IMG/VR virus record: IMGVR_UViG_3300025109_000036
Coordinates: 1-34,721 of that record
DNA: 34,721 nt
Reading direction: 5' to 3' (one strand)
DNA from: a virus
Positions 9,836-17,819 of the stretch are shown one piece after another. Both the position numbers and the translations under genes were made by a program. The notes beneath the pieces were generated by a model that saw nothing but the letters and a program-made list of their open reading frames with translations, was not told the origin of the DNA and did not search any database. The first letter of the stretch is position 1, and each line of letters starts with the position of its first letter.

Positions 9836-11629
9836 TTAAATATTTATTCTAGCCTCGGCTATTTTTATATAATCTTCTTCTCTTTCTATTCCTATAAATT
9901 GTCTACCTGTATTCTTACAAGCTACACCTGTCGTTCCTGAACCCATAAATGGGTCTAGCACTATTCCACCAGTAGGAGTTTTAGTTAGTGTGCATAGGTA
10001 TTCCATTAGTTTAAGAGGTTTAACAGTGGGATGAGAATTTCGCATCAAATTATTCCTTTCATTCCCTGAACCAGTTTTTAATGTCTTGTCTTGTGTTACA
10101 GCCATACCACCACCTACCTTCTCCTCCAACCCCTCACACCCTGCGTTTCTTTCACTCTTTGAAGCCTTAGCTGTGTAGAAATACCTCTTCCATTCTTCAT
10201 CTTTTGCCACTTCCTCATCTAGTATTATATTAGCTGGGAATCTGCCTTGTGTTGTTGCGTTCTTAATCTCTTCTTTGACACATTCTGGGTCTGAATAAAT
10301 CTCTTTATCTGTAAATCTTAATACCTTATACCCACACTTTTTCATATAAGAATCTTGGCTTTTATCAAGTGCTTTCCTTTTTGGTTTACTGTGCCAATAT
10401 TCTCCATCCCATTGAATAACCAGTTTATCTTTAGGGATATACACATCTACTAAGAACTTCTTTTCTATTAAAGATTGTTCTTCAAACTCAACGCCAAGTT
10501 CTCTTAATATCTCACTACCTCGTTTTTCAAGATTATTTAATCCATTACTTTCTGCTTGCAAATAAGACACCCAAACGCCTTTACATTTCTCTGAACAAGT
10601 GCTTCTATCTCCTTGACTTTTCGGTGCTTCAAATTCATTCTCACAAATATTACAAATATGCTTATTGCGATTCTTTTGAAATTCCTGCCTACATTCTGCA
10701 TTGCAAAAATGATTTTTATACTTATCAAGAAAGCATTTCTTTACATACTTTTCCTTTCCACAACTATCACAGTTCTTGTAAGCTCCTTTTTGCTCTGGTT
10801 TAATCCGTGCTCCGTCAATGTTTAACCCAGCCACTTTGTGTTTAAGAGCATTGTTTGCATAAGTTCCGTCATTAGGTTTTTGGGCTACCAAAATTGGTTC
10901 ATAGGCTGGTTTAAGGCCGTGAGACTTCCAACCGTTCCATAGTTTGGCTTCGGGTGTTGATGGTTGAGTGATATCTTCTAAATCACCTACACTTGCATTC
11001 ATTTTTATATTAGAATTTTCACTATTTGCCCTTTGTTTTTTTTGGGCTATAATCTCCCTTTCTGCTTCTCCTCTTTTAATAAGTTCATCAAACCTGTCAT
11101 CCAAATCTAAAACTTCCTTTAGCTTTATATACATTCCCAAAGTAGGCAATTCATTGGTTTTTTTATCACCCATAACACAACTCGCAAATCCACCACCTGT
11201 TAAGGCACTCTCCATTAATTCATTAACTTTTTTTAGTGTATACACTTTTTCTTTGCGTTTCTCGTTACAATATTCTTTAAATCTTTCATCAAAATACCTC
11301 CCATTCCTCTTATCCAACTGTTTACTAATATCAGTAGCTTTCGGGAATCCTGAGCCATACAACCACATAATAGTATCTTTCAAAATAAACCCTGCGTCTT
11401 CTACATTACAAGCCATTCTGTGTTGTGTTCTACTACCTGCAAAGATCAATGCTGTGCCACCTGGTTTCAGTACCCTCAAACACTCTTGCCATATCTCTAT
11501 ACTAGGTACATCATCATCCCATTTCTTTCCCATGAACGATAATCCGTAAGGAGGATCTGTTATTACAGTATCAACCGAGTTATCTTCAAGCTCTTTAAGT
11601 TTTTCTAAACAATCGCCATGTATAATCAT
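9836..11629 (-). CDS. Beta-class DNA methyltransferase with an inserted nuclease domain
   Basis: The start at 11629 directly follows the TerL stop and gives 597 residues; a longer start would overlap TerL. Motif IV DPPY is at residues 25-28 and motif I DPFMGSGTT at about 559-567, preceded by HPTVKP. The order IV then I marks a beta-class N4-cytosine or N6-adenine methyltransferase, using S-adenosylmethionine. Between LNIDGARI (269-276) and QGRFPANIILD (461-471), which read as adjoining methylase segments, lie about 175 residues of zinc fingers plus a Vsr/DUF559-like nuclease. The enzyme may protect phage DNA from restriction, or pair methylation and cleavage in one chain. The specificity is unknown. 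Confidence 0.85.
   Translation of the reverse strand: MIIHGDCLEKLKELEDNSVDTVITDPPYGLSFMGKKWDDDVPSIEIWQECLRVLKPGGTALIFAGSRTQHRMACNVEDAGFILKDTIMWLYGSGFPKATDISKQLDKRNGRYFDERFKEYCNEKRKEKVYTLKKVNELMESALTGGGFASCVMGDKKTNELPTLGMYIKLKEVLDLDDRFDELIKRGEAEREIIAQKKQRANSENSNIKMNASVGDLEDITQPSTPEAKLWNGWKSHGLKPAYEPILVAQKPNDGTYANNALKHKVAGLNIDGARIKPEQKGAYKNCDSCGKEKYVKKCFLDKYKNHFCNAECRQEFQKNRNKHICNICENEFEAPKSQGDRSTCSEKCKGVWVSYLQAESNGLNNLEKRGSEILRELGVEFEEQSLIEKKFLVDVYIPKDKLVIQWDGEYWHSKPKRKALDKSQDSYMKKCGYKVLRFTDKEIYSDPECVKEEIKNATTQGRFPANIILDEEVAKDEEWKRYFYTAKASKSERNAGCEGLEEKVGGGMAVTQDKTLKTGSGNERNNLMRNSHPTVKPLKLMEYLCTLTKTPTGGIVLDPFMGSGTTGVACKNTGRQFIGIEREEDYIKIAEARINI
10262..10792 (-). mobile_element. In-frame zinc-finger plus Vsr/DUF559-like nuclease insertion in the methyltransferase
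   Basis: This covers residues about 280-456 of the methyltransferase. Zinc knuckles CDSC, CNAEC, CNIC and CSEKC occupy residues 287-349. They are followed by a PD-(D/E)XK-type fold of the DUF559/Vsr kind: E373, D395 in FLVDVYIP, then VIQWDGEYWH with D408 and H413, and D425 before the KKCGYKVLRF strand. These families include very-short-patch repair enzymes and EDxHD homing endonucleases. No intein ends flank it, so it is probably translated as part of the methylase. The boundaries are estimates. Confidence 0.65.
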
Positions 11630-11630
11630 T

Positions 11631-13862
11631 TTATGTAAATCTATTTTTAGCTTTTGTTCTTGTTTCTTCAAAGTAGTCCAACTGATCCCTGTTACCTGTC
11701 TCACTAGTAGCATTAAGCCTACTGCTTATCTGTGCAAACTGTCTGAATGCATCACTGTTACTAACCAACAACCCGTTTGCCAGATAACAATGGTGATGGC
11801 TTACGGTTATATCATATACAGGACACAAATTTCCCGTTGATAAGTTTACTACCCTTGCGTAATTTTGCTGATCGTTTCCCTGCTTCTCGTAGTTGCTTCT
11901 TGTTTGCTTCGCTTCCAACCCACTTATTCGTTTTTGCATGTAGTTTAGAATGGTTTGAAGCGGAAATACACGCAAGGTTTTCAACAACATTGTTACTCTT
12001 ATCGCCGTCCTTATGATGGATATGATAACCTTTCGGTATTTCTCCATTAACATCACTCCAAATAATCCTATGCAAGAAACTGTTTGTATACTTGCGACTA
12101 TAGTATCCATCTGATTCTCTTTTGTAATATTTTTTTCCTTTATATTCTTGGAACGGATGTTTACTAGGCACTTTTCTGTTTGAACCCTTCTTTCTTTTTC
12201 TCCAATTATCTTTTTGGAAATTCTCCCAATCCCCATCAATCGGATAAATCTCATCTTTTCTAGTAATTTCACCAACCCTATCTTCCCACAAAACTCTATG
12301 AAAAAGTTTTGTTTCCCCTCCTTTTTGCGACACGTAAAGTCTTCTTGTTTTCCAATAGTTATATCTTGTCCCTCCATATAAGATATAACACCCTTTCTTA
12401 TCCCCTCTTTTTGAAATTTTTTCACATTCCATATTGGTTTTGTTAGTGTATGAATACTATCATTATACACTAACTCATCTGCACATACAATACCTCTAGT
12501 CGTGAAAAACTTATGTTCAGGCGAAGTCTGTATTTCTGTACCATCTGTCAAACCAATCTTTATTGTTAAGGAGTCTTTTACATAACCTGAATGAGTAACC
12601 TCCCCATATACGCCATGAATATCTACTATGTCACCAACTAATATATCTTCTATGTTTTTATAACCATTTTTCATCTTAATTTGCGTGCCAGCAACCGTAC
12701 ACCCGTGTGATGCCCAGTCATGTTGTGGTGTGTCGGAAAAGATCTGCATCTTATCGTTCCATCGCTTCTTATAGCTCATTAGAGAGTTTAGTCCCTGGAA
12801 ACAATTGTCTTTATCAAACCAACATTTATGGAATATAGCCCTTGTTGCCTGTATACCATCAGCTAGGCTTGGAGTTCTAGGCACTATCTTGAATGTAATA
12901 CCCAACTTCTGTGCTGTCTCCCATCTAGTGACCCCTGTTGTTAGCTCTCGCACCTCTATATCGTGTGGAGCATAGTGACTGTCGTATATATAACCTTTCT
13001 GTTGACATATCTGTATGTAGTGTTGAAGACTCTCACCCTCGTTCTCATAGTAGTCTATGAATCTATACTCTTGTCCAACTATCTGCATGAACCATATTGT
13101 CATGCTATCGCTTATACCTAAGTCCCAGAATGTGTATACAGGTAAGTTAGCGTCATATGGTATTCTAGTTATCCTGCCACTATTTCTAGCCTTCTCTAGT
13201 TGGTTAGCATAGTAAGCTCCTTTTAACGAAGCCTCAAACGAACAATAGAACTCTTGGTTAAACTCATCTGCATCCATTACCTCTTGTGCATCTGCTAATT
13301 CTTCCTTATCAAGTATACCTGTGTCCTCAACTGTGAGTAGTGTAGAAAACCACTTATCATTAGTTTTTGCCTTGCTATATAGCTGGTAGAAGTCATTCAT
13401 TCCCTTCGGTGTTCCTATCCATATCCCATACCCCTTATTATCAGCCAACGCTGGTCTTATAATTTCAGTAAAGATGTTGCTTGGTTGTTGTGAGTACTCA
13501 TCAAATACCACACCCCACAAAGCAATTCCACGCAAACTGTCTGGATTGTCTGCTCCATATAATGTAATTCTCGCACCATTAGGAAAGTCTACTCTCAATT
13601 CACTCTCATTTGTCTTTACTCCAGGAATAACCATTGAATAGTGTTTCAAGTAGTCCCAAATTATTTGCTTTCCTTGGCGATATGTGGGACTTATGAACGC
13701 GTATCTACTATCCTTATTCTTACAAGCATCTCTTATTAAATGGTTTATAGCTGCAACGCTTTTCCCGCATCTTCTATGGGCAACTATAACATTCCATCTC
13801 TTGTCAGTATCATGAAGTGCCAAAGCCCATTCTCTCGGTGCATATGGTATTTCGTATTTCAT
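11631..13862 (-). CDS. Large terminase subunit interrupted by an intein
   Basis: With the ATG at 13862 this is 743 residues, of which 315 are intein, leaving a normal-size 428-residue terminase. The ATPase carries AHRRCGKS (Walker A, 28-35), VVFDEYS (Walker B, 118-124) and GTPKG (150-154). The nuclease domain begins near YTFWDLG. The intein lies between HDWASHG and SDAFRQ, that is, inside the conserved nuclease motif, so terminase activity needs splicing. The protein translocates DNA into the prohead and cuts it. An upstream in-frame start at 13913 would add 17 residues that overlap the RNA element; the MKYEIPYAPREW start resembles other terminases better. The intein also hosts an overlapping HNH gene. 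Confidence 0.9.
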   Translation of the reverse strand: MKYEIPYAPREWALALHDTDKRWNVIVAHRRCGKSVAAINHLIRDACKNKDSRYAFISPTYRQGKQIIWDYLKHYSMVIPGVKTNESELRVDFPNGARITLYGADNPDSLRGIALWGVVFDEYSQQPSNIFTEIIRPALADNKGYGIWIGTPKGMNDFYQLYSKAKTNDKWFSTLLTVEDTGILDKEELADAQEVMDADEFNQEFYCSFEASLKGAYYANQLEKARNSGRITRIPYDANLPVYTFWDLGISDSMTIWFMQIVGQEYRFIDYYENEGESLQHYIQICQQKGYIYDSHYAPHDIEVRELTTGVTRWETAQKLGITFKIVPRTPSLADGIQATRAIFHKCWFDKDNCFQGLNSLMSYKKRWNDKMQIFSDTPQHDWASHGCTVAGTQIKMKNGYKNIEDILVGDIVDIHGVYGEVTHSGYVKDSLTIKIGLTDGTEIQTSPEHKFFTTRGIVCADELVYNDSIHTLTKPIWNVKKFQKEGIRKGVISYMEGQDITIGKQEDFTCRKKEGKQNFFIEFCGKIGLVKLLEKMRFIRLMGIGRISKKIIGEKERRVQTEKCLVNIRSKNIKEKNITKENQMDTIVASIQTVSCIGLFGVMLMEKYRKVIISIIRTAIRVTMLLKTLRVFPLQTILNYMQKRISGLEAKQTRSNYEKQGNDQQNYARVVNLSTGNLCPVYDITVSHHHCYLANGLLVSNSDAFRQFAQISSRLNATSETGNRDQLDYFEETRTKAKNRFT
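11757..12701 (-). mobile_element. Intein in the terminase nuclease motif
   Basis: The intein is 315 residues. It begins with Cys (CTVAGTQIKMKNG, block A). It has a block-B-like TSPEHKFF. It ends with CPVYDITVSHHHCYLANG and LLVSN, followed by the extein Ser of SDAFRQ. The last residue is Asn as required; the penultimate residue is Ser instead of the usual His. The Hint splicing halves are the first 90 or so and the last 35 residues; the middle is covered by the HNH gene in another frame. Insertion at a conserved active-site motif is typical of inteins. Confidence 0.88.
11812..12432 (-). CDS. HNH homing endonuclease gene nested out of frame inside the intein
   Basis: This 206-residue ORF lies wholly within the intein sequence but in a different frame. 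The HNH core is HRIIWSDVNGEIPKGYHIHH followed by KDGDKSNNVVENL and SNHSKLH near residues 122-166. The N-terminal half carries a degenerate copy of the same unit (LFHRVLWEDRVGEI), so the protein looks like an internal duplication. Homing endonucleases of this class nick or cut the empty allele and copy themselves and their host element. The protein reading is far better in this frame than in the intein frame, whose middle part is Ile/Lys-rich and has no recognisable domain. No clear Shine-Dalgarno sequence precedes the ATG; expression could also come by frameshift. Confidence 0.75.
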   Translation of the reverse strand: MECEKISKRGDKKGCYILYGGTRYNYWKTRRLYVSQKGGETKLFHRVLWEDRVGEITRKDEIYPIDGDWENFQKDNWRKRKKGSNRKVPSKHPFQEYKGKKYYKRESDGYYSRKYTNSFLHRIIWSDVNGEIPKGYHIHHKDGDKSNNVVENLACISASNHSKLHAKTNKWVGSEANKKQLREAGKRSAKLRKGSKLINGKFVSCI

Positions 13863-13867
13863 AACTA

Positions 13868-14005
13868 TTATACTTTTAAACCCAGAGATACTTCCACCAT
13901 ATACATGATGCAAGCTTCAAGGAAACTAGTCTGTGTATTACGTGCAGATACATTTCCTAGTCTCCCTTCCACTTTAGAGACTATCTTAATGTAGTTAGAC
14001 GTCAA
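13868..14005 (-). other. Weak TTG ORF overlapping the RNA element (not called as a gene)
   Basis: Beginning with TTG at 14005, 45 codons run to a TAA two codons before the TerL ATG. The frame continues openly further upstream, and a second open frame reads on from the TerS stop to about 14003. Neither has an ATG, a ribosome-binding site or a recognisable product. The strong pairing pattern over the same bases suggests an RNA rather than a protein. Confidence 0.2.
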
Positions 14006-14140
14006 CTTGACGATGAGCCTTGCAGAAGTCTCTGGTTTCGCTCACCCCAGTAGTATACAACACTTTTACATACTATTGGTGGGAGTGAACTACCTTCTTC
14101 AGCTCCAGTCACATTGTATTTAGCGTCGCAAGCCACTGAC
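13915..14140 (-). ncRNA. Group-I-intron-like structured RNA between TerS and TerL
   Basis: On the minus strand the pairings fall in group I order: P3 CTTGC (14128-14132) with GCAAG (14019-14023); P4 GTGACT (14107-14112) with AGTTCAC (14085-14091); P6 at 14070-14085 with 14041-14056 (13 pairs, three mismatches); P7 AGAGACT (14027-14033) with AGTCTCT (13976-13982); P8 CGTCAAGTTGACG (14000-14012); and a P9-like stem AGGAAA (13953-13958) with TTTCCT (13920-13925). The J8/7 region reads TTAAGATA, close to the conserved AAGATA of group I introns. P5, P1 and the splice sites are not clear. An alternative stem TAGTCTC/GAGACTA competes with P7. It could be a degenerate intron or another structured RNA. 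Confidence 0.4.
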
Positions 14141-14163
14141 CACGACGGCACGTAAATTGTACT

Positions 14164-14499
14164 CTATTCTTTTTTATTAGTAGCCCAGCCTATAACTATT
14201 GACTCACCACCACTGGTTACATCTAATTTATCCTTACTCTTACCTAACTGTCTATCTAAATATTCTTTTATAGCAGAAATATTTCTTTTACTTACACCTT
14301 CCTCATAAAGCACATCTAATAATGCTAGACATCTTTCCTTCTTTCTAGTTTCATCGTATTCAGATCCATGCTGGGAAATTAACTCCTTAACCTTCTCTAA
14401 TTCTTCTTTGTTAAGCAAAGGTCTTCTTCCTGATCCTTCTCGTTTTCCACCCCAACTTGATTTATTTCGTTTTTCAAGTTTCTCAAGTTTCTCTTCCAT
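14164..14499 (-). CDS. Probable small terminase subunit
   Basis: This 111-residue protein is highly charged, with a basic N-terminus containing WGGKREGSGRR, a motif shared by many small terminase subunits and related DNA-binding phage proteins. A helical oligomerisation-type region and a C-terminal LDVTSGGES follow. Small terminases bind the packaging site and regulate the large subunit. It is the nearest gene upstream of TerL, with the structured RNA element between them. Its stop is TAG and the frame remains open for about 50 more codons beyond it, which looks incidental. The assignment rests on motif and position. Confidence 0.65.
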   Translation of the reverse strand: MEEKLEKLEKRNKSSWGGKREGSGRRPLLNKEELEKVKELISQHGSEYDETRKKERCLALLDVLYEEGVSKRNISAIKEYLDRQLGKSKDKLDVTSGGESIVIGWATNKKE

Positions 14500-14558
14500 G
14501 TGTTTTATTCTTATTTTGCGCTAGGAATCATTCCTATTAAGCTAATCAAAAAAATATA

Positions 14559-15292: not shown

Positions 15293-15577
15293 TTAATGAA
15301 TGTTAGATTGCCAACTTATCATGTGATCAGCCTCAATATCGTAGACAAACTCAACATATCCTATACCAATAGCCCACTTAAAAACCTCTCCAACTATATA
15401 CCTTTTTGTATAATAACAATCAATCTTGTCTCTAGCTTGAAAACCATAGCGTTCTTTTATCTTGTTCATTAATCCTATCTTCATGTTATATGTTTTGTAT
15501 CCATTAGAACTAGACATCCCTTCCGCCCTCTTAAGCTGAATCTTGCCAAAGTTTTTATATTGTTTTTTTATACTCAT
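15293..15577 (-). CDS. Unknown 94-residue basic protein
   Basis: This 94-residue protein has a basic N-terminus (MSIKKQYKNFGKIQLKR) and a C-terminal alpha/beta region with KIKERYGFQARDKIDCYYTKRY. Its ATG overlaps the HNH stop in an ATGA junction, so the two are translationally coupled and may act together. I recognise no family. It ends right at the promoter for the downstream operon. Confidence 0.5.
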   Translation of the reverse strand: MSIKKQYKNFGKIQLKRAEGMSSSNGYKTYNMKIGLMNKIKERYGFQARDKIDCYYTKRYIVGEVFKWAIGIGYVEFVYDIEADHMISWQSNIH

Positions 15578-15933
15578 AAACCTAACTTCAGTGATTCTAT
15601 TATTCCTTCTATGTAGCCTATAGTGTCTTTAACAGTTACTTGCTTTGCTTTCTCTAACCTGTTTAGCCATACCTTACCTCTAACTTCATTTACTATGTTA
15701 TGTATTCTTGGATCAGACTTCTGGTGATGACTCATGTGGCAACCATTGCATATCGGTATACAGTTCTTCATGTTATATCTCAATGCGTAGCTCACGCTTT
15801 TTGGAAAATAGTGATGTAAGCAGGTATACGGTCTACCACAAACCAAACATTCATCATAAAGGTTTCTACCTATCTCCTGTAACATCTTATCTGCTTTCTT
15901 TTTTAGTCTTTGTTTTTTTTGTTGTGATGTCAT
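15574..15933 (-). CDS. HNH-type nuclease (NinG/Rap-like arrangement)
   Basis: The ATG at 15933 gives 119 residues; an in-frame ATG at 16008 would extend over a promoter-like sequence and a hairpin, so I prefer the shorter start. Zinc ligands CLVC (C29, C32) and CNGC (C62, C65) flank a CLHHYFPK segment with the His pair at 40-41 and an Asn at 57, the layout of HNH nucleases such as the NinG/Rap recombination proteins and of phage His-Me nucleases. It may resolve or nick recombination intermediates, or act as a homing endonuclease. It sits in the recombination cluster next to the SSB-like gene. Confidence 0.65.
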   Translation of the reverse strand: MTSQQKKQRLKKKADKMLQEIGRNLYDECLVCGRPYTCLHHYFPKSVSYALRYNMKNCIPICNGCHMSHHQKSDPRIHNIVNEVRGKVWLNRLEKAKQVTVKDTIGYIEGIIESLKLGL

Positions 15934-15981
15934 ATATATTAACCCGCCTACTCCTACTAGCACACTAGCAGCTTGTCGTTG

Positions 15982-16025
15982 GGTTTGACCCCAAACCATT
16001 ATACACATAGGAAGTAGGTAGGCAA
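15982..16025 (-). promoter_or_regulatory. Promoter with a hairpin over the start site
   Basis: The minus strand carries TTGCCT (-35, 16020-16025) and TATAAT (-10, 15998-16003) with a 16-base spacer. A perfect six-base-pair stem GGTTTG/CAAACC with a four-base loop (15982-15997) covers the predicted start, like an operator palindrome or a 5' RNA hairpin. It precedes the HNH gene. Confidence 0.55.
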
Positions 16026-17014: not shown

Positions 17015-17479
17015 TTAATTATATTTTAATTCTTCTAACTTTCTTGCCCTTATAGCCTCTTGCAAACAATCGAAATATCCAATGTGAGATTGCTTTTTAT
17101 TTCTTTTTATCCTTGAGTGCCACTTTCCCTTTCCCTTATTCCATTCTACACCTATTACACCAGAGATATTTTTAGTCTTATCACCCCTATTAAGATTGTT
17201 TTCTGTTCTTGTGACAGACCTTAAATTACAAAGCCTATTGTCCATTCTGTCTCTATTTATGTGATCTATTTCTTTCGGGAATACTCCGTGCACATAGAAC
17301 CATGCAAGTCGATGAGCTAAAAACCTTTTATAGTTTGCAGTTATGCTTATATACCCAGCGTTGTGCGAAGTTCCAGCAATGCCGCCCTTTCTGGCTCTGC
17401 TATTTTTATTTACAACCCATCTAAACACACCAGTGTTTTCGTCATAATGCAATAACCCTTTTAGTTCTTTTTGAGTCAT
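17015..17479 (-). CDS. Free-standing HNH homing endonuclease with an AP2-type domain
   Basis: The ATG at 17479 is one base after the previous stop codon and gives 154 residues. The central HNH core has AHRLAWFYVHG then EIDHINRDRMDNRLCNLR with D72, H73, N81 and N85, and a C-terminal AP2-like DNA-binding segment at about 105-150 (GVIGVEWNKGKGKWHSRI). This is the classical phage HNH_3/AP2 homing enzyme. It interrupts a pair of replication and recombination genes. No intron or intein accompanies it, so it is a free-standing selfish gene. Confidence 0.8.
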   Translation of the reverse strand: MTQKELKGLLHYDENTGVFRWVVNKNSRARKGGIAGTSHNAGYISITANYKRFLAHRLAWFYVHGVFPKEIDHINRDRMDNRLCNLRSVTRTENNLNRGDKTKNISGVIGVEWNKGKGKWHSRIKRNKKQSHIGYFDCLQEAIRARKLEELKYN

Positions 17480-17480
17480 A

Positions 17481-17819
17481 TTAAAACGGGCATTTATCAT
17501 CTTTATTATCTCCACCTAACTCGTCTGAACTACACATGCCAACGTTATTATACCATCTCAGTGCTCTTGCAATAGCTCTAGTCTCAGCCATTCTGATCTT
17601 GTGCTTTGCTACTAGCTTACCAACATTCTCCTCGCTAGCATCTCCCAGCCCCTGATACAGTCCTTTTTCGCCTTCAACCGTAGCCTGGACAATGAATGGC
17701 TCTAAGTTGACTATCTCTGTCTTGATTGATTTGCCTCCGTTCTCATGGAACTCGTTTAATAGCCCAGTGAACAGAACAAAGTCTTTTCCTTGTAGGTTAA
17801 TAGTAAATTTCTTGTCCAT
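17481..17819 (-). CDS. Annealing-type or single-stranded-DNA-associated protein
   Basis: This 112-residue protein contains GLYQGLGDASEENVG and HKIRMAETRAIARALRW, a layout common to phage proteins near recombination genes, some annotated as Rad52-like single-strand annealing or ssDNA-associated proteins. The C-terminus ..DNKDDKCPF resembles the acidic tips of SSB-type proteins that bind helicases and nucleases. A role in recombination or replication is likely; the family is an inference. It is coupled with the preceding 61-residue gene. Confidence 0.6.
   Translation of the reverse strand: MDKKFTINLQGKDFVLFTGLLNEFHENGGKSIKTEIVNLEPFIVQATVEGEKGLYQGLGDASEENVGKLVAKHKIRMAETRAIARALRWYNNVGMCSSDELGGDNKDDKCPF

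Follow-up and report, generated by a model that had tools for sequence, protein, structure and literature searches.

The minus strand between the terS stop codon and the terL start, from about position 14165 to 13882 of the window (the whole stretch of 34,721 nucleotides analysed here), is a real, conserved and structured noncoding segment. It is a previously unclassified RNA of about 284 bases, and the marine phage that carries it is related to phages of SAR11 (Pelagibacter), its TerL being 49% identical to that of Pelagibacter phage HTVC010P over the N-terminal half. Phages of the HTVC010P type count among the abundant viruses of the sea; their genomes are compact, at about 35 kb, and to our knowledge few noncoding RNAs have been described for them. 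Their packaging genes usually touch or overlap; a conserved RNA of this length between them must pay for its space.

On the minus strand a small gene (14855-14559) is followed by terS, the gap with the RNA, terL, a methyltransferase gene and a gene that occupies the head-tail connector position. The intein in TerL lies between WASHG and SDAFRQF and is absent from the relatives L045-L047. Set beside relatives without the RNA, TerL, TerS, the methyltransferase and the small-gene product are all complete, which agrees with an earlier sequence-only reading that the RNA interrupts neither of its neighbours. We also considered a hidden terL exon on the precedent of phage ICP1 (PMC10448857) and rejected it, as the N-terminus of the window TerL aligns with its relatives from the first residues and no exon is therefore missing. 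The DNA methyltransferase gene (9836-11713) holds an in-frame insertion in which segments resemble a zinc finger and a homing endonuclease but clear intein motifs are missing, and two HNH-type nuclease genes lie upstream of terS (15574-16008 and 17015-17515; NinG-like, and HNH_3 with AP2). A palindromic motif, TAGGAATGATTCCTA, recurs at gene boundaries in the window (14522-14536), in L045 (4408-4422) and in L047 (80-94 and 441-455); in its best form it makes an 8-bp hairpin and could be a regulatory or processing signal.

Table 1. Positions of the RNA, its parts and the flanking genes in the window.
Feature	Position	Strand	Remarks
terS	14164..14499	(-)	intact; identified from its position and its likeness to relatives
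terL	11631..13862	(-)	N-terminus intact (ATG at 13862); an in-frame intein interrupts the gene
Whole structured RNA unit	13882..14165	(-)	284 nt; begins with AGAG at the stop codon of terS and ends with CTCTGG, which leaves 19 nt to the ATG of terL; based on conservation with L014:1023-1276 and z of -2.4
Core for covariance model R1	13931..14161	(-)	231 nt, 61 pairs
Closing helix, 5' strand UUACGUGC	14148..14155	(-)	homologue GUAUCAAGU/ACUUGAUGC; both bases replaced in four pairs
Closing helix, 3' strand GCACGUAA	13938..13945	(-)	partner of 14148-14155
Hairpin GUCGU/GCGAC	14125..14146	(-)	conserved 12-nt loop GGUCAGUGGCUU; homologue GCCGU/ACGGU; one double and two single compensatory changes
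Long arm	14015..14105	(-)	GAGCU/GGCUC, AGAAG/CUUCU (two double compensatory changes), GUUCAC/GUGAGC, UAGUAUGUAA/UUGUAUACUA
CCAGAGA, internal loop of long arm	14029..14035	(-)	exact complement of tail UCUCUGG; possible pseudoknot
Small hairpin CGUCA-AGU-UGACG	14000..14012	(-)	homologue CAUCA-UAG-UGAUG; compensatory G-C to A-U; P8 of the sequence-only reading
Hairpin ACAUU/AAUGU and UAGUCUCU/GGAGACUA	13950..13992	(-)	loop AAAGUGGAAG; every cell paired; U-A has become U-G in single changes
Segment before tail	13899..13930	(-)	about 30 nt, most of it inserted relative to the homologue; holds the 3' strand of the earlier P9
Conserved 3' tail GGUGGAAGUAUCUCUGG	13882..13898	(-)	17/17 identical between lineages

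The minus strand of the terS-terL gap folds better than dinucleotide shuffles (z of -2.3), as do the 284-nt unit (-2.4) and a homologue (-2.8). This one homologue, found by pattern scans (L014/L045, contig IMGVR_UViG_3300006733_000030, at L014:1023-1276), has a core about 80% identical to that of the window. Three other contigs come from the same population as the window (99.9%), two of them reaching the RNA region and carrying the RNA, so that the independent sequences number only two. Folding of the gap and covariation with the homologue confirm the structured RNA first noticed from the letters of the window, the extent given for it then (13915-14140) being too short. Single-base gaps separate the two sequences in the RNA and thus no reading frame can be common to both, in keeping with a noncoding RNA. 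No Rfam family, including such ornate phage RNAs as Rfam contains, matched at its gathering score in the whole window. The searches below gathering score, which took in the homologue, gave two matches only, IS009 (14.0 bits, E 0.36, opposite strand) and PreQ1 (17.0 bits and E 0.43, at a place that is not in the RNA); both stayed far under the cut-off and were taken as chance. For the RNA neither a promoter above chance nor a terminator was found.

Aligning the two lineages gave a model of 61 pairs in nine helices, which was drawn with both sequences in view. Standard pairs fill 99.4% of its cells, and the sole unpaired cell belongs to the closing helix, where the aligner put a gap; by eye the homologue has a 9-pair helix of its own at this place. 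Eight pairs are changed on both sides, compared with a mean of 2.7 in shuffles (0/500 reach 8) and with 0-1 when the partner is slid by 1-3 columns. In a less biased test, the fold predicted from the homologue alone was scored on the window, where it keeps 8/9 single and 6 double changes, all of the 5 broken double changes being in the misaligned closing helix; on the opposite strand only 6/15 single changes are kept. In the reverse direction the minimum-energy fold of the window differs in the 5' half and keeps 10/15 single and 7/10 double changes, and is a poorer description than the fold derived from the homologue. Where only one base of a pair has changed, pairing survives as G-U on the minus strand and is lost on the plus strand, so that the minus strand is known to be that of the RNA. 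The comparison supports a predicted fold made up of a closing helix, a hairpin, the long arm, two further hairpins and the conserved 3' tail, and in the two lineages loops and tail are conserved as well as the stems.

The tail may in addition form a pseudoknot with the internal loop of the long arm. The CCAGAGA/UCUCUGG duplex has a calculated energy of -9.8 kcal/mol, and both of its strands are invariant in the two lineages, so that covariation speaks neither for it nor against it. Alternatively, GUAUCUCU of the tail could pair with the 5' end AGAG(A)UA(U/C), at -8.4 in the homologue and -3.9 in the window.

The homologue occupies a different site. In L045 the RNA is found between the small gene and the DNA methyltransferase gene, with 34 nt including a further hairpin motif between it and the start codon, and terS and terL overlap without a gap; the upstream gene is thus terS in the window and a different small gene in L045, the downstream gene terL and methyltransferase, respectively. 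L046, with a TerL that shares 89.5% identity with that of L045 and 75% with that of the window, has an empty small-gene/methyltransferase junction at which the stop codon meets the ATG, and neither L045 nor L046 has the RNA at the terS-terL junction. L047 (TerL 70% identical to that of the window) has an HNH gene between terS and terL; this gene (about 780-1320), with a strong hairpin before it, is exactly at the junction that holds the RNA in the window. The comparison with relatives lacking the segment, already proposed from the sequence, thus shows matching junctions that are empty and flanking genes that are complete. Because there are relatives without the RNA and two sites with it, the unit is an accessory cassette and apparently a movable one. 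Searching 42 TerL relatives (several of them partial contigs) and further whole records with model R1 returned the known copies only, besides a weak match in L097 (712-825, around GAAACCAGAGATTTTTGCAAGGCT; 14 bits, E 0.2 after preselection) that is probably chance, and the whole genomes of cultured HTVC010P-type phages gave no copy. Beyond the two lineages, the matches from six pattern scans of viral contigs and one of genomes looked like chance and were mostly in coding sequence, blastn against phages and plasmids found no homologue, and the literature on pelagiphage introns or like RNA held nothing matching.

The explanation that we prefer, and to which we give about an even chance, is a phage-encoded, free-standing structured noncoding RNA of about 284 nt on the minus strand, which is moved or exchanged as a cassette between intact genes and has a fold with a complementary tail. 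Such an RNA would be read from the minus strand, probably within the terS-terL transcript, and would fold into a domain closed by the long-range helix, with its 3' tail complementary to the internal loop of the long arm. Sitting as an accessory cassette in gaps between intact genes, it would have been moved or exchanged between phages by recombination. We infer that it is transcribed with the operon, is released or acts as free RNA, and works in trans late in infection instead of on a single gene downstream. That both upstream and downstream genes differ between the two phages argues against control of one particular gene, and the differing downstream genes together with relatives that manage without the RNA favour a free noncoding RNA. 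Against this explanation stand the two copies themselves, each of which directly precedes a gene on its coding strand and so is leader-like in look, as well as the small number of two independent sequences, the negative result for promoter and terminator, the lack of variation in the pseudoknot strands and an absence in relatives that comes partly from partial contigs. We put forward more tentatively, and consider somewhat less probable, that this is a new class of movable, pseudoknotted phage noncoding RNA between gene junctions of SAR11-type phages, acting in trans.

The leader-like look leads to the main rival, in which the RNA acts in cis on the operon mRNA, as a leader, a stabiliser or a processing site, and controls the gene that comes next. 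The RNA is on the same strand as the genes and ends 19 nt before the terL ATG, the homologue is likewise just before a gene start, and a switch could make use of the choice that the tail has between CCAGAGA and the 5' AGAG end. However, the gene to be controlled would be terL in one phage and the methyltransferase gene in the other, the homologue is separated from the start codon by 34 nt and a further hairpin motif, and close relatives have both gene pairs without the RNA, which makes this reading rather unlikely.

It appears improbable that the RNA is a self-splicing group I intron, divergent or decayed, which came to lie between genes. Such an intron would explain core-like letters (CAGAGACU ... 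UUAAGAUAGUC), the U.G of a P1-like hairpin in the window, a possible P10 (AAGC/GCUU), the P3/P7-like knot that CCAGAGA/UCUCUGG would form with the arm, and the homing-type genes nearby. Yet RF00028 gave no match at E <= 10 in the window including the gap, in the contig of the homologue or in a near-identical copy, and in the T4 genome as positive control it detected three introns (105.3, 40.3 and 35.7 bits). The group I-like RNA of the sequence-only reading finds no support here: the model is silent, no gene is split, and the homologue does covary, for a different fold. The helices of that reading came without coordinates and were reconstructed by us from the sequence. The letters TTAAGATA before AGTCTCT are present, and the P8-like CGUCA/UGACG (14012-14008/14004-14000) is a supported pairing with one compensatory change; the P3-like GAGCU/GGCUC (14105-14101/14019-14015) is part of the supported pairing as well, but invariant. 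The 3' strand of P9, as reconstructed (GGAGACUAG/CUAGUUUCC), is absent from the homologue, in which P4 (GGUAGU/ACUACU) has a broken pair. P7 (AGAGACU/AGUCUCU) never varies and competes with the covarying AGAAG/CUUCU and with the local hairpin UAGUCUCU/GGAGACUA, and in the supported fold a single arm replaces P4-P6, with no P6 separate from it. The U.G of P1 at the putative 5' splice site is U-A in the homologue, and splicing would repair nothing, as the flanking genes are intact. A group I model built by hand (P1 GUCGU/GCGAC, P10 AAGC/GCUU, 3' splice site after TTTCCTTG) was attractive on the window alone and was dropped because the homologue has no P9/P10 segment and a changed U.G.

Two further readings are less likely. 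A packaging RNA, an option of the sequence-only reading that we took as an RNA of the terminase motor in the manner of phi29 pRNA, would suit a location inside or beside packaging genes in both phages; relatives with a TerL 70-75% identical to that of the window (one of them 89.5% to that of L045) have no copy in the available sequence, several being partial contigs, nor do the cultured HTVC010P-type phages over whole genomes, and the close relatives L046 and L047 in particular weaken this option to a very improbable one. Slightly less probable still is an element at the DNA level without an RNA role (cos or pac site, or hairpin-ended mobile element), which would fit the nearby terminase genes and the terminal AGAG/CTCT inverted repeat but not pairing that is kept via G-U on one strand only, as expected of an RNA (8/9 against 6/15).

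The structure, model R1 and the coordinates allow others to test expression of the free-standing RNA that we favour and to look for further copies. Among known systems, the phi29-type packaging RNA is a structured phage RNA tied to the packaging module and is similar in this placement, whereas the RNA of the window has no Rfam match and gave no copy in relatives whose terminase is similar. Group I introns (RF00028; T4 td, nrdB and the third T4 intron) resemble it in size without ORF, in a few core-like letters and in a phage setting near homing-type genes, and differ by their model match, fold, P6 and P9, and split gene. In phage ICP1 an intron splits terL and a homing endonuclease is nearby (PMC10448857), again an RNA insertion at a phage terminase, although terL of the window is whole. 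ROOL and GOLLD are ornate phage RNAs, many GOLLD being longer than 800 nt, and are often near tRNA islands (PMC12286853). They are larger than the RNA of the window, which is without an Rfam match, and all share the character of an elaborate, phage-encoded noncoding RNA of unclear function that lies outside coding genes.
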